This document shows positions 15,642 to 40,886 of a stretch of DNA of 64,000 nt, piece after piece (position 1 is the stretch's first letter; each line of letters opens with the position of its first letter). A program made the position numbers and the translations under genes. The stretch comes from Aquirufa lenticrescens (GTDB lineage: Bacteria > Bacteroidota > Bacteroidia > Cytophagales > Spirosomataceae): contig NZ_CP049834.1 of NCBI RefSeq assembly GCF_019916085.1, forward strand, positions 775,501 through 839,500, read 5' to 3'. The notes below the pieces were generated by a model. That model was not told where the DNA came from. It did no database searches and saw only the letters and a program-made list of their open reading frames with translations.

Positions 15642-18455
15642 ATGCTCTTGAAAAGAATTAGCCTTTATTTCTTGTTTCTGTGCGCGCTTAGTTTTGCGGC
15701 TCAAGCGACCCATTTAAAGGGAGGGGAGATCACGGTAAAACGGATGTCGGATAAAACATTGACTTTCGAATTTACGCTAACCACCTACACGGAAAATAAT
15801 CGGGCGAATGTGGAGCAGAATACGGTGAATTTCTGTTTTGGGGATGGTTCTTCTATTTTATCAGCTCGTCGTTCTGCTGGTTATCCTATTAATCTAGGGA
15901 ACGGGACGTTGAAAAACGTATACAAAATCCAATATACCTATCCAGCTGCTTCCTTGTTTTATAAAGTATCCGTGGCTGTTCCTAATCGAAATGATGGCGT
16001 ATTGAATATTACACGTTCAGTGGATGTGGCATTTTATGTAGAAACTATCTTTTCGATTAATGCAGGATTGGGATTAAATTCCACGCCTGTGTTACTGAAT
16101 CCAGCGGTGGATTTGACTGCCGTGGTCGGACAGCCCTTTATTCATAATTCGAATGCGGTAGATGCGGAAGGTGATTCTTTGGCCTACCGCCTATCTGTAT
16201 CTAGAACTGGGGCAGAATTAACCTGCGATCCAGCAGGAAGAGGTTTATTAGCCCCTAATTTTAAGCAGCCTAATGAGGTTTCTGCAACTCCCTCTTCGTT
16301 TACGATTAATGCCAAAACAGGGGATTTAATCTGGAGATCCCCTCAAGAAGTAGGTTTGTACAACTGTGCATTTATTATTGAAGAGTGGAGAAACGGCGTC
16401 AAGATTTCGGAGACCGTTCGGGATATGCAGATCGAAGTGAAGGATTTAGATAACAGAGGTCCCTTGTTAAGTGTACCTGCAGATGTTTGTATTCAAGCTG
16501 GAACGCGTATAAATCAAACCATTACGGCCATTGATCAGGTTTCTAAAACGGGACGGGTGGATCCGATATCCATTACGAGTAGTGGAAATGTGTATGCGAT
16601 AGATACATCTTATGCTGTCAAACCTCCTAATGCGACCTTTACGGCTGCTGCGCGCCAAACGGCTCTTACGGCTGTAGGTACCTTCAACTGGCAAACAGAT
16701 TGTGTTCACATTCGAAAAGAGGGATATGATGTCTTTTTCAAGGCAGAGGACTTTCCGCCTGTGACAAACGCAGGGGTGAGTAATTTAGTAGATAGTAAGA
16801 TTTGGAATATACGGGTGCTCGCGCCAGCAGTGAAAAATGTGACAGCTACAGCAGGAGTGGGTACTTCCATCGCGCTTAAATGGTCTACGTACGCCTGTTC
16901 TTTACCTAATGCTACGTTGATTTTGTACCGAAAACAAGGTGCCTGCGATGCCATCGTCAATGCGAATTGTGCTACTGGTATGTCGGCATCTGGCTACACG
17001 GAACTAGCTCGTTTACCTATTACGGCCACAGCTTACACGGATAATGCCATCGTAAAAAATACGAATTACTCTTATGTGCTAGTGGTGGCCTTTACGAATT
17101 CGAAAGGAGTAGACGATTTCAGTCCGATGTCAAATTCGGCTTGTTATTTGATTGCCAGCGCTTCGCCTATTATGACAAATGTATCTGTGCTTAAAACGAG
17201 TACCACGGCAGGGGAGAACTTAGTGCGCTGGACGCGTCCAGTGAAATTAGATACGCTGCAATACCCTGGGCCTTATACATATCAATTGATGCGGGCTATT
17301 GGAACTGGGACTTATGGAGCCATAGGTTCACCTATTCCGGCTACTATTCGCACTGCAGTAAACGATACGACCTATACGGATACCGGTTTAAATACCTCCG
17401 CGTTGACTTACCGCTATCGCACGGATTTCTATTATACGTTAAATGGTGTGCGAACTTTATTAGAGTCGCCTACACCGGCTTCTAATGTGCGTTTAAGTAC
17501 GCAAGTGGCCATTGCTTCTGTGAAGTTAGCATGGTCTGCTACTGTACCTTGGTCCAATGAGAACAAAGTTCACCGTGTTTACCGTGAGACGCCTCGTGGG
17601 TCAGGTATTTTTAATCGTATTGCCGATGTGCCTGTGACGACGGCTGGCACTTTTAAATATGTGGACTCAGGAGCAGATACGTATGCCGCTGACGGGACGT
17701 TTTCTGTGGCGATGAAGACCGATTCGTCGTACTGTTATTATGTGGAGACCTTGGGTTCGTATGGGCCAGGATTGCCAGCGATGGAATTGATTAATAAGTC
17801 GCAAATCATTTGTGGTATTCCACAGACAGACATTTTCCCTTGTCCTCCAGCGCTGCAGTTGTACACTGTGGATTGCGCGTCTTTAGATACAAAGGCGGAT
17901 TGTTCATTCAGTAGCTTTACAAATCAACTTACGTGGACGCCTACGGTCTCCGGTATTTGCGATCCGGATATTGTGAGTTATAAGATTTATTATGCTAAAG
18001 ACCCTCCGTCTGCCTATACCTTATTAGCCACTTCTTCTACGTTGAACTTCTCGCATATACTCCAAAACTCCTACCGTGGTTGTTATTACGTGACCGCTGT
18101 AAGTGCCTTAGGTAAAGAAAGTACGCCTAGCAACAAGATTTGCGTAGAGAACTGTGCGTCATTTGACTTGCCTAACTTATTTAGTCCAAACGGAGATGGC
18201 CTGAATGATTCCTTTAAGCCGATGCGCTGTCCACGCTTTGTGAGTTTAGTGACCTGTAAAATTGTAGATCGCAATGGTCAGCTAATTTACCAATATTCCG
18301 GTCCTTTGGCTGGTTTTGGTTGGAATGGAACGGATTCAAACGGCGTTCAAATGTCAGCCTCCTCTTATTTCTACACTTGCGATGTGGTCTTTGATCTGTT
18401 TGATAAATCGGCACAAAACAAGAGTCTTAAAGGCTGGGTAGAACTAGTTCGCTAA
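15642..18455 (+). CDS. Secreted surface protein with CHU_C (T9SS) C-terminal domain
   Basis: The 937-residue product has a signal peptide (about 1-22, ending AAQA) and a PKD/cadherin-like beta-rich N-terminal half (VDAEGDSLAYRL near 180). Several fibronectin-III-like repeats lie between about 395 and 840. The C-terminal domain runs from about 846 to 937, with LPNLFSPNGDGLNDSF, RNGQLIY, WNGTDSNG and YFYTCDV. That last domain is the gliding-motility-associated (CHU_C, type B) sorting signal read by the type IX secretion system. The protein is therefore predicted to be on the cell surface or secreted. Many cysteines suggest disulfides. The adhesin-like role is inferred; no enzyme motif is seen. 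Confidence 0.88.
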   Translation: MLLKRISLYFLFLCALSFAAQATHLKGGEITVKRMSDKTLTFEFTLTTYTENNRANVEQNTVNFCFGDGSSILSARRSAGYPINLGNGTLKNVYKIQYTYPAASLFYKVSVAVPNRNDGVLNITRSVDVAFYVETIFSINAGLGLNSTPVLLNPAVDLTAVVGQPFIHNSNAVDAEGDSLAYRLSVSRTGAELTCDPAGRGLLAPNFKQPNEVSATPSSFTINAKTGDLIWRSPQEVGLYNCAFIIEEWRNGVKISETVRDMQIEVKDLDNRGPLLSVPADVCIQAGTRINQTITAIDQVSKTGRVDPISITSSGNVYAIDTSYAVKPPNATFTAAARQTALTAVGTFNWQTDCVHIRKEGYDVFFKAEDFPPVTNAGVSNLVDSKIWNIRVLAPAVKNVTATAGVGTSIALKWSTYACSLPNATLILYRKQGACDAIVNANCATGMSASGYTELARLPITATAYTDNAIVKNTNYSYVLVVAFTNSKGVDDFSPMSNSACYLIASASPIMTNVSVLKTSTTAGENLVRWTRPVKLDTLQYPGPYTYQLMRAIGTGTYGAIGSPIPATIRTAVNDTTYTDTGLNTSALTYRYRTDFYYTLNGVRTLLESPTPASNVRLSTQVAIASVKLAWSATVPWSNENKVHRVYRETPRGSGIFNRIADVPVTTAGTFKYVDSGADTYAADGTFSVAMKTDSSYCYYVETLGSYGPGLPAMELINKSQIICGIPQTDIFPCPPALQLYTVDCASLDTKADCSFSSFTNQLTWTPTVSGICDPDIVSYKIYYAKDPPSAYTLLATSSTLNFSHILQNSYRGCYYVTAVSALGKESTPSNKICVENCASFDLPNLFSPNGDGLNDSFKPMRCPRFVSLVTCKIVDRNGQLIYQYSGPLAGFGWNGTDSNGVQMSASSYFYTCDVVFDLFDKSAQNKSLKGWVELVR

Positions 18456-32943: not shown

Positions 32944-33736
32944 AGGTGCTTGGCAAGATCCTGAACAGGTGACTGTGTCGGTTAAGGATGTCGGTTTCTT
33001 ACGTGGTTTTGGCATCTTCGATTTCTTCCGTATTATGGATGGGCATCCCATCTTTATGTCCGATCATTTGGATCGTTTTTTGAGTTCGGCTTCGAAAATG
33101 GGTTTGTCACATAGTTACTCGAAGGAATCGCTGGCTGCGTTAATTAATGAGATCGCGGCGCTTTCCGTCGATCCTTGTCTAGGAGTGAAATTGGTTTTAA
33201 CGGCCGGCTTCAGTTTAAATGGATTTGATCCGATAGGGGAATCTGAATTGTATATTTTTCCTGGGGTTTTCTCTTTTGCAGAGCCTACCGCCGGTATGCG
33301 TTTAATGAGTCGAGAATACAAGCGTGAAATGGCGGATATCAAATCACTGAATTATGCCTACGCTTTAAGGGAAATGCCAGCGGTTCGTGCCGCCGGAGGC
33401 GATGATTTGATTTACCATACTCCTGAGTTTGGTGTCTCAGAGTCCTCGCGGTCTAATTTGTTTTACGTCAAAGACGGAGTCATTCATACGCCTGCAGATC
33501 ATATTTTAGAGGGTATTACCCGTAAAATGGTGATTGCCTTAGCTTCCTCGGTTTACGAAGTTCGAGTGGGTAAATGTACTTTAGCAGATTTTATGAACGC
33601 TGATGAAGTCTTCACCACCGGGAGTACAAAGCGCGTCTTGCCTATTTTCTCCATTGATGGAAAACAGATAGGAGATGGGAAAAGGGGTGAGGTGACGGAG
33701 AGGCTGTATCAGCTTTTGCTAGTAAATGAGAAATGA
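32921..33736 (+). CDS. Class IV PLP aminotransferase/lyase (possible PabC)
   Basis: The 271-residue protein belongs to fold-type IV PLP enzymes: the PLP lysine is in DIKSLNYAYAL near 145, the conserved glutamate is in GVSESSRSNLF near 175 and TTGSTKRV is near 230. The family includes branched-chain and D-amino-acid aminotransferases and 4-amino-4-deoxychorismate lyase (PabC). The 23-base overlap with folP makes PabC attractive, because PabC makes the substrate that FolP uses, but sequence alone does not settle it. The final codons read into the heptad-repeat palindrome. Confidence 0.82.
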   Translation: MAYPIYYKGAWQDPEQVTVSVKDVGFLRGFGIFDFFRIMDGHPIFMSDHLDRFLSSASKMGLSHSYSKESLAALINEIAALSVDPCLGVKLVLTAGFSLNGFDPIGESELYIFPGVFSFAEPTAGMRLMSREYKREMADIKSLNYAYALREMPAVRAAGGDDLIYHTPEFGVSESSRSNLFYVKDGVIHTPADHILEGITRKMVIALASSVYEVRVGKCTLADFMNADEVFTTGSTKRVLPIFSIDGKQIGDGKRGEVTERLYQLLLVNEK

Positions 33737-33800
33737 TGGTAAATGGTAAGTGGTAAATGGTGAATGATCATTTACCATTCACCATTCATCATTCACCATT
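33737..33800. repeat. Inverted heptad array between convergent genes (TGGTAAA type)
   Basis: The left arm is four consecutive seven-base units (TGGTAAA, TGGTAAG, TGGTAAA, TGGTGAA). The right arm is four complementary units (TTTACCA, TTCACCA, TTCATCA, TTCACCA). The arms meet at TGATCA, with the axis between 33767 and 33768. Folded, about 31 of the positions in each arm align, with three mismatches and three G-U pairs. The element fills the whole space between two stop codons and is a likely two-way terminator, though without a T tract. Confidence 0.85.
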
Positions 33801-39493: not shown

Positions 39494-40408
39494 ATGTATA
39501 TGTGGGAGACAGAAATCCAGTCTTTTGGTGATTACTTAAAAATAGAGCGTGGACTGTCTAAGCATTCCCACGAAGCCTATTTGCGAGATATCCAAAAGCT
39601 GGCGACCTATCTATCCGTTTCTCCCATTTTGATTAGTGAGGTTGATGAATCCCATATTTTGGCTTTCCTAAAAGACCTACACTCCTTAGGCATCGAGGCA
39701 AGTACACAATCGCGTACCTTATCTGGTATCCGTGCCTTTTTTCAATTTCTCGTGTTCGATGGCACGCTAAAAGCGGACCCCACCTTTCACGTGAAAAATC
39801 CCCAAATGGGACGCAAATTACCTGACACCCTTTCTTTCGACGAGATCACAGCCATTCTCGATGAAGCAGACTTGTCTAGTCCAGAGGGAGTTCGCAATCG
39901 GGCCATGCTTGAATTTTTGTATGGAGCGGGATTACGTGTTTCGGAACTGATTGGCCTAAAAAGAGAAGATATATACGAAGATCAAGGCTTCATCAAAGTC
40001 CGTGGAAAGGGTGACAAAGAACGCCTAGTCCCAGCAGGTCGCGATGCATTTAAGTATTTGAATCTGTATTTGGAATCAGTTAGACCTTCTGTACCTGTCA
40101 AAAAAGACGCCACTCATTTAGTCTTCCTAAATCGCCGTGGTTCCGGCTTGAGTCGTGTGATGGTTTTCTTGATTTGTAAAGACCTTGCCGCGAAAGCAGG
40201 CATCACTAAAGTGATTAGTCCCCATACTTTTCGACACTCATTTGCAACGCATTTAATTGAAGGCGGAGCAGATTTACGTGCCGTTCAAGAGATGTTAGGG
40301 CACGAATCGATTTTAACGACGGAGATTTATACGCACTTAGATCGGGCTTATTTGACGCAGATGGTGCAGGATTTTCATCCTTTTTCCAAAATAGATAAGA
40401 GATTATAG
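39494..40408 (+). CDS. xerD: Tyrosine recombinase XerD-like
   Basis: The 304-residue protein has a SAM-like N-terminal core-binding domain (about 1-95) and a C-terminal catalytic domain. The latter carries the Arg in GAGLRVSEL, Lys in VRGKGDKERLV, His and Arg in PHTFRHSFATH, His in LGHESILTTE and the Tyr nucleophile in EIYTHLD. Such proteins resolve chromosome dimers at dif. A second ATG two codons in is an equally good start. No mobile-element genes flank it, which supports a housekeeping role. Its last codons (IDKRL) overlap the start of the second heptad array. Confidence 0.9.
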   Translation: MYMWETEIQSFGDYLKIERGLSKHSHEAYLRDIQKLATYLSVSPILISEVDESHILAFLKDLHSLGIEASTQSRTLSGIRAFFQFLVFDGTLKADPTFHVKNPQMGRKLPDTLSFDEITAILDEADLSSPEGVRNRAMLEFLYGAGLRVSELIGLKREDIYEDQGFIKVRGKGDKERLVPAGRDAFKYLNLYLESVRPSVPVKKDATHLVFLNRRGSGLSRVMVFLICKDLAAKAGITKVISPHTFRHSFATHLIEGGADLRAVQEMLGHESILTTEIYTHLDRAYLTQMVQDFHPFSKIDKRL

Positions 40409-40481
40409 AGTGTAGAGTAGAGATAAATAACCCTATCTATACTCTCTACTCTATTATCTAGAATCTTTACTCTCTAATCTC
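40394..40481. repeat. Inverted heptad array between convergent genes (TACTCTC type)
   Basis: Read in sevens, the left arm from 40394 is GATAAGA, GATTATA, GAGTGTA, GAGTAGA, GATAAAT. The right arm from 40433 is CTATCTA, TACTCTC, TACTCTA, TTATCTA, GAATCTT, TACTCTC, TAATCTC. The stretch 40400-40459 pairs into a stem of about 25 positions with three mismatches around a loop near 40426-40433. The array runs into the coding ends of xerD and of the unknown gene downstream. The unit sequence differs from that at 33.7 kb but the period is the same. Confidence 0.75.
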
Positions 40482-40886
40482 CGACCCCTCCTCTGGAAAA
40501 GGGATAAACACAAAATTCGTAAACTGTCCATCTACAACAAAAAGACACGCGAATTCTTCGATGTCTTTGAAGTTTTGGACAAATAGTTCCATATTTTCTT
40601 CTGCGATGAGTTTGCGCTGCACAAATTCTTCCATCATGGAGGCGTGGTAATTCCACTTGTTTTCGTGCAATTCGCCTACGCCAATCAGTTTTTGGCCGAT
40701 TTCGATGGGGCGTTGGGAAGTTACAAAGATGGGGAAATCGGAGAAGCCACGCTTTTTGATTTGGTAAGCTGCTTCTTTCAAGGCATCCGCTACTTTGATG
40801 AAATCAGAAGAGATTAGGCCTAAATATTTCCCGTTTAAGTCCGGGGAATTAGGTGCATTGGAAAGGGCTGTGTAATCTTCGATCAT
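40467..40886 (-). CDS. Conserved-looking protein of unknown function
   Basis: The 139-residue protein has no motif I can name. It is soluble, mixed alpha/beta by eye, without signal peptide or membrane segment. It follows the alanine dehydrogenase gene after one base and is probably co-transcribed; I recall a small unknown gene in this place in related Bacteroidota. Its last four codons (EIRE) and stop are made of the heptad-array sequence, so its natural C-terminus may have been altered by that array. Confidence 0.7.
   Translation of the reverse strand: MIEDYTALSNAPNSPDLNGKYLGLISSDFIKVADALKEAAYQIKKRGFSDFPIFVTSQRPIEIGQKLIGVGELHENKWNYHASMMEEFVQRKLIAEENMELFVQNFKDIEEFACLFVVDGQFTNFVFIPFPEEGSEIRE

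Follow-up and report, generated by a model that had tools for sequence, protein, structure and literature searches.

The heptad arrays of this genome are probably the cognate repeats of IVP pentamers, with the array at the xerD junction being an arms-only copy of an IVP-heptad element. The full element comprises a small gene of the PF05635/TIGR02436 family placed between two inward-facing inverted repeat arrays. Its repeats are usually 7 nt long, formed by a conserved core of 3-5 nt and 2-4 variable positions, and the repeat family differs from one protein clade to the next. Arms-only pairs of the same repeats are scattered genome-wide, mostly at convergent gene ends and with about five cores per arm. 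The association of protein and repeats is observed, and it is likely that the IVP pentamer recognises its repeats; more tentatively, comparison suggests that the arms-only pairs may be mobilised in trans by IVP. The pairing of protein and repeat is the new part, the array alone belonging to a known kind. No paper joining heptad arrays to IVP genes was found in the literature searched, which included no preprints and few subscription journals.

The array at the xerD junction

The window is the whole stretch of DNA analysed, 64,000 bases long (bases 775501-839500 of a single-contig genome of 2,505,188 bases, the window genome). The array lies between two host genes taken from ORF calls, a XerD-type tyrosine recombinase gene on the left (39494..40408, + strand), outside the element and with an orthologue adjoining the junction in relatives, and a conserved gene of 139 aa on the right (40467..40886, - strand). 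Orthologues of the latter were identified in 80 retained loci, the nearest named one being that of A. antheringensis (Aquirufa, Cytophagales) with 97% protein identity.

The left arm (40393..40427, + strand) is formed by the five heptads AGATAAG, AGATTAT, AGAGTGT, AGAGTAG and AGATAAA, which belong to family A (AGAKWAK) in its R form. Their AGA cores, read directly, stand at 40393, 40400, 40407, 40414 and 40421, in exact 7-bp steps. The arm starts inside the xerD ORF and provides its last codons and stop. After a spacer of 7 bp (40428..40434, by sequence reading) comes the right arm (40436..40480, - strand), formed by seven heptads with TCT cores at 40436, 40443, 40450, 40457, 40464, 40471 and 40478, again in 7-bp steps; this is family A on the minus strand, that is, the Y form on the plus strand, and the 139-aa gene takes codons and its stop from it. 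The core positions confirm the statement of the earlier note that heptads with a 7-bp period supply codons and stops of both genes. The unit of family A is better written AGAKWAK, with positions 1-3 about 99% conserved and position 6 conserved in 92%. As RNA, the whole array folds into one hairpin (-27.9 kcal/mol, z -3.2). At the window's own xerD junction no IVP gene is present between the arms, just the 7-bp spacer.

The second array of the window (33732..33800), also at a convergent junction, comprises ATGGTRA heptads (family B) in inverted arms, with a hairpin z of -4.6, and its cognate IVP gene is present elsewhere in the window genome (1981410-1981712). The two arrays had been described as two unrelated heptads in 64 kb; both are real, but further families exist beside them, and some families are interrelated.

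Period-7 arrays across the genome

The scan covered the whole genome, 10,000 of its bases being N; relatives were examined locus by locus. Genes were taken from simple calls, not curated annotation (2150 genes, 91% coding), so that start positions may be off. Local self-match by lag over the whole genome gave 52 segments at lag 7, of which 49 were non-coding. The other lags between 4 and 13 yielded 0-2 each, and the lags of two and three periods, 14 and 21, yielded 39 and 12. Lag 7 stands alone. The suggestion made from the window that a common system acting on the period lies behind heptads of differing sequence is supported. A period-7 scan of the genome had been set beforehand as the test of it, and the arrays proved enriched at convergent gaps. 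The family regexes identified 88 array islands in the 2.5-Mb genome, located in 48 of 170 convergent, 34 of 718 tandem and 6 of 352 divergent gaps of at least 20 bp (Fisher p 5e-17 for convergent against tandem, 1e-19 against divergent).

Four families dominate in the window genome: A (AGAKWAK), B (AATGGTR), C (CAGTRNN) and D (AAAGMAY), each with a conserved core and variable positions. When the forms AGA, ATG, CAGT and AAAG are called R and their complements Y, the arms face inward: the order is RY in 42 islands, RRY in 7, RYY in 2 and RRRY in 1, YR was found in none, and four islands are Y-only (YY in 3, YYY in 1). Arms from different families keep the inward polarity as well, and it is also seen at tandem and divergent gaps; pairing in a hairpin or the direction of the genes is therefore by itself no sufficient explanation.

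Counts of cores per arm have their mode at five. In family A five cores were counted in 45 of 78 runs, with three in 6, four in 12, six in 5 and seven in 5. Family B has five in 19 of 42 (three in 8, four in 13, six in 2) and family D in 13 of 20 (four in 4, six in 1). Family C peaks at four to five with no clean five (four in 15, five in 10, six in 3). Hand counts from hit positions in two relatives, made with an A-family pattern unable to list three-core arms, showed this mode too, with about 15 arms of four cores, 24 of five and 4 of six in G296, and about 13, 18 and 2 in G304.

Three heptad arrays of the window genome (846274-846468, 219213-219442 and 1505559-1505817) lie within a few kb of the three N stretches and have repeated flanking sequence; these stretches are perhaps rRNA operons. 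Another array-bearing gap, 1949050-1949285, contains a degenerate partial tRNA-like copy beside an apparent tRNA.

The same junction in relatives

Four relatives (L154-L157) present arms only at the xerD junction, of family A or D. Three of them (L154, L156 and L157, with a 139-aa protein 97-99% identical) carry A arms of 7, 5 and 11 units on the left and 5, 5 and 5 on the right, and the fourth (L155, 99%) carries D arms. Ten relatives (L162-L171) have no array, the stops of the two genes being 5 bp apart, and in L184-L189 other heptads were identified (AATGTAG, TTAGTNN and GGGATTA). In sister species (L158-L161, L290, L291, L295 and L296) CAAAGNN and CTTTGNN arms at the junction enclose an IVP gene. 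The ORF at 2573-2935 of L161 matches TIGR02436, four helix bundle protein, with E=6.5e-26 and PF05635, 23S rRNA IVP, with E=4.1e-23. Both profiles clear the curated cut-offs for IVP, PF05635 with 120 and 82 bits against 33.8 and TIGR02436 with 108 and 91 bits against 24. The xerD junction has a parallel at 1246753-1246837 of the window genome, where a B arms-only pair occupies a site that holds D- or A-type genes in relatives.

The earlier note had called for a comparison of heptads between strains. At this junction the gains and losses of units may be due to slippage, but an origin of the arrays by slippage followed by arm inversion is unsupported.

IVP genes and their flanking arrays in Aquirufa

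The window genome contains three PF05635 genes. One, IVP1, has C arms (531695-531751 and 532214-532259), another, IVP3, has B arms (gene 1981410-1981712; arms 1981265-1981297 and 1981761-1981779), and the third, IVP2 (gene 1021341-1021646 in 1020900-1022050), is flanked by inverted arrays of hairpin units of about 27 nt (GACTAAGCTGCGAAGCAGCGACTCTTT) with no heptads. Arms of the IVP2 type recur in G296, G308 and G312. S-type IVP genes, with 15-nt arms (AGTCCGAAGGGAAAG and variants), were identified in L261, L262, L266, L270, L271 and L294, and many mixed-family arrays in the window genome have a close variant of this unit at their centre (133197, 192596, 1486761).

Heptad arrays within 450 bp flank 18 of 30 Aquirufa IVP loci on both sides and 4 of 30 on one side, compared with both sides in 4 of 1500 random placements in the loci of relatives and 0 of 1500 in the own genome. 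When any tandem period from 5 to 40 was counted blind, arms were present at 58 of 60 IVP loci against 36 of 600 random placements. The IVP genes inspected sit between protein genes (for example engB-hemE, or the 139-aa gene and xerD) and none within a 23S rRNA gene. Their median dN/dS of 0.03-0.25 indicates purifying selection. No exact insertion boundary and no target duplication could be made out, and no IVP match was found among 50,697 phage records.

A tblastn search of the window genome (10 kb being N) for a cognate IVP of families A and D found just the three known genes. A-type genes were identified in G304 and G318 and D-type genes in G308, G320 and G324; in G296 A arrays are numerous and the A-type gene is missing. 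Arrays of A and D with no resident gene may be relics of gene loss or may be served by a related IVP. That family A, dominant in the window genome and the family of the xerD array, has no resident cognate gene is the main gap in this account.

Protein clade and repeat family

Arms were labelled by regex before the protein tree was built. For 51 labelled IVP proteins and 12 arm families, the protein tree (short, 106 columns, with some weak joins) requires 11 changes of arm family, the minimum possible. At least 33 changes were needed when the labels were shuffled globally, and at least 19 when they were shuffled inside each genome so that the host stayed constant; 0 of 5000 of the latter reached 11. 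A Mantel test made with no hand labels gave rho 0.515, a value reached by 0 of 999 within-genome permutations.

The arms track the protein and not the site, gene and arms being exchanged together at a site. At engB-hemE, a site whose neighbours were identified by eye in the sequence, elements of type C, I or S are found; a second site has A or D, a third J or F, and elements of family F occupy three sites. Heptads of the sister clades A and D resemble each other. Genomes that have an I-type IVP are richer in free I-family arrays (p=0.002); the abundance of C arrays showed no significant relation to the presence of a C-type gene (p=0.29). Coupling of gene and arms is partly expected from physical linkage, and since both can travel together it is by itself no proof of recognition. 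Taken with the scattered arms of the same families, the association in trans of the I arrays and the five-core mode, recognition is the simplest reading. Some clades have other periods, 15 nt in S, about 27 nt in H and about 8 nt in one Nostoc gene, so period 7 is not universal.

Structure of IVP and proposed mechanism

The AlphaFold2 model of IVP1 is a confident four-helix bundle (pLDDT 94.5). Foldseek ranked 2gsc (chains A-E) and 2rld (A-E) highest for it, followed by the Avd of a diversity-generating retroelement (DGR), 4dwl, and the DGR ribonucleoprotein entries 8ube, 8ubb and 8ub7. Both 2gsc and 2rld are five-chain entries, and the title of the 2gsc paper (2006), as cited in PMC10053308, refers to five four-helix bundles. 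Kinship of PF05635 with Avd is noted in PMC10053308; the Avd profile match of IVP is weak (E 0.003). The pentameric structures of these homologues point to a ring with one core per protomer.

IVP would thus form a ring of five four-helix bundles, akin to Avd, and bind its repeats as single-stranded DNA or RNA. Each protomer would hold one core, the chain running round the ring as in TRAP (trp RNA-binding attenuation protein) with its NAG triplets. TRAP is a ring protein whose target has evenly spaced short cores, variable spacers and a core number equal to that of the ring. The comparison is one of analogy only, the proteins being unrelated and the binding by IVP putative. Such binding would fix the spacing at 7 nt and the arm length at five cores, regardless of the sequence of the core. 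By binding, IVP may copy, protect or mobilise its repeats, and arms-only pairs might spread in trans as REPINs do with RAYT. Convergent gene ends would be the least harmful places for insertion, and the stop codons present in most arms could substitute for the stop of the invaded gene.

Alternative explanations

Replication slippage followed by arm inversion, offered in the earlier note as an example of the common mechanism, is not supported: the mode at five cores, the restriction to period 7 and the inward polarity of arms from mixed families argue against it, and the clade-matched genes that the arms flank also speak against it. Slippage does not predict a peak as sharp as that at five (45 runs in family A), and arm inversion is no explanation for an inward polarity shared by arms of different families. 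The other phrase used there, a recombination system that generates the arrays, comes nearest to the present result in that a gene family, IVP, is tied to the arrays, though this was not visible from the window. The arrays could also be plain slippage satellites of the known cyanobacterial STRR type, in or beside which IVP genes prefer to insert. The 7-bp unit steps between near-identical relatives at the xerD junction (left arm of 5, 7 or 11) agree with this, and loops of 7 nt are expected to escape mismatch repair. It is nevertheless unlikely, as it predicts neither the mode at five nor the sharp drop at six (from 45 to 5 in family A), gives no preference for 7 over 6 or 8, and leaves unexplained both the clade-specific repeats and the inward polarity of solo arms.

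The strong enrichment at convergent junctions and the good folding of both window arrays as RNA (z -3.2 and -4.6) are what would be expected if the inverted arrays were bidirectional terminators or stabilisers of mRNA 3' ends for convergent genes, selected as hairpins and with the repeats incidental. This is improbable in view of the many pairs whose arms, being of different families (C-b, AB-c, DB-c, A-d), do not pair and still keep the inward polarity, which is the same at tandem and divergent gaps. Furthermore, the arrays flank one protein family far above chance, orthologous junctions of relatives have no array at all, and harm to promoters accounts equally well for the scarcity at divergent gaps. 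Finally, IVP could be a nucleic-acid-binding regulator with no mobility involved, point mutation and selection having turned heptads into its operators or RNA sites. The coupling of protein and repeat, the purifying selection on the IVP genes and the kinship with Avd, a subunit of a ribonucleoprotein, suit this explanation; it is quite doubtful all the same, because close relatives differ at one site in gene and arms at once, and the complete two-armed pairs at dozens of unrelated junctions look more like copies than like sites recruited piecemeal.

Relation to known systems

Among the systems closest to the IVP-heptad element is RAYT (TnpA_REP, a Y1 transposase) with its REP/REPIN sequences: in both, a short extragenic repeat encloses a chromosomal gene in inverted orientation and is scattered genome-wide as inverted pairs, and the protein clade matches the repeat class. 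The flanking repeats of IVP elements are dispersed in the same manner, families B and C being also present as free arrays in the window genome. Unlike RAYT, IVP has a four-helix-bundle fold and no nuclease recognised in it, and unlike the REP palindromes its repeats are 7-nt tandem arrays. Identity with RAYT/REP is excluded by the absence of the Y1 transposase (Y1_Tnp, PF01797, in 0 of 8 Aquirufa genomes; controls positive in 5 of 14).

The arrays themselves resemble the heptameric STRR, GGGAATC and TAACTGA repeats, which are 7-nt tandem arrays, mostly intergenic, with an ACTG core shared with family C among them; according to the lag spectrum the Aquirufa arrays are likewise intergenic tandem 7-mers, as heptameric STRR are defined. 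In Xanthomonas, GGGAATC heptad arrays form 70-75 convergently oriented pairs (PMC4692102), and TAACTGA heptad arrays occur in Beggiatoaceae, cyanobacteria and Bacteroidetes (PMC4679880). Neither paper ties a cognate gene family to the arrays, and xcc0516 is not mentioned in PMC4692102; what is added here is the cognate gene, the polarity rule and the five-core mode.

The 23S rRNA intervening sequences with an IVP ORF encode the same protein family (PF05635). Unlike them, the Aquirufa copies are located between protein genes and flanked by short tandem repeat arrays. In the DGR (Avd, RT and TR/VR), Avd has the IVP fold (4dwl, 8ube), but the associated reverse transcriptase that defines a DGR is not part of the IVP elements. 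RVT_1 was identified in just 3 of 8 Aquirufa genomes, which excludes a constant reverse transcriptase partner, and in the window genome it lies about 400 kb from the nearest IVP gene. This single RVT_1 domain (1580154-1580918, - strand, 74 bits) stands away from any IVP gene.

Occurrence beyond Aquirufa

PF05635 matched in 232 of 296 sampled Bacteroidota genomes. ACTGNNN arrays were present in 116 of the 296; the control pattern GTCANNN was also common in some, which indicates that many cores exist. Across the phylum, with kinship uncorrected, 135 of the 140 genomes that have ACTG or GTCA heptad arrays contain an IVP gene, as do 97 of the 156 that lack them. The best-scoring IVP genes of 30 genomes of the phylum had heptad flanks in 9 cases, 3 of them on both sides (control 0 of 2000 on both sides).

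Of 17 plasmid IVP genes, 13 have heptads within 200 bp on at least one side and 5 on both, against 77 and 1 of 3901 random placements. They come mostly from cyanobacteria: Nostoc, Anabaena, Calothrix, Trichormus, Pseudanabaena, Aulosira, Scytonema, an Azospirillum and a Riemerella are represented. The plasmids of Nostoc, Anabaena and Calothrix are among those with heptad arrays at their IVP genes. Two loci, L357 and L359, appear heptad-flanked by eye yet fall under the filter. In L362 (Nostoc edaphicum pNe_5) the IVP gene at 16463-16849 has arms with an apparent period of 8 in place of 7, and clades may thus vary in their spacing.

It is conceivable, at somewhat less than an even chance, that the heptamers known for decades from cyanobacteria, Xanthomonas, Beggiatoaceae and Bacteroidota, so far lacking an explanation, are all cognate to one widespread pentameric IVP/Avd-like system that reads five evenly spaced cores, propagates the arrays and has its code set by the clade. 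If true, this would be a mobile-repeat system with no known transposase, Avd being a relative recruited by retroelements. The pairing of IVP with heptads proposes a role for PF05635, a large family of unknown function, and an owner for an ownerless class of bacterial repeats, made up of heptameric STRR with their inverted pairs; the Avd of DGRs would also find its place in a wider family of repeat-reading ring proteins.

Some IVP genes of cyanobacterial plasmids are found inside CRISPR-cas runs (cas6-IVP-cas4 and cas10-IVP-cmr3), as identified in L347 (Anabaena pANA02), L351 (Pseudanabaena) and L349 (Picosynechococcus).
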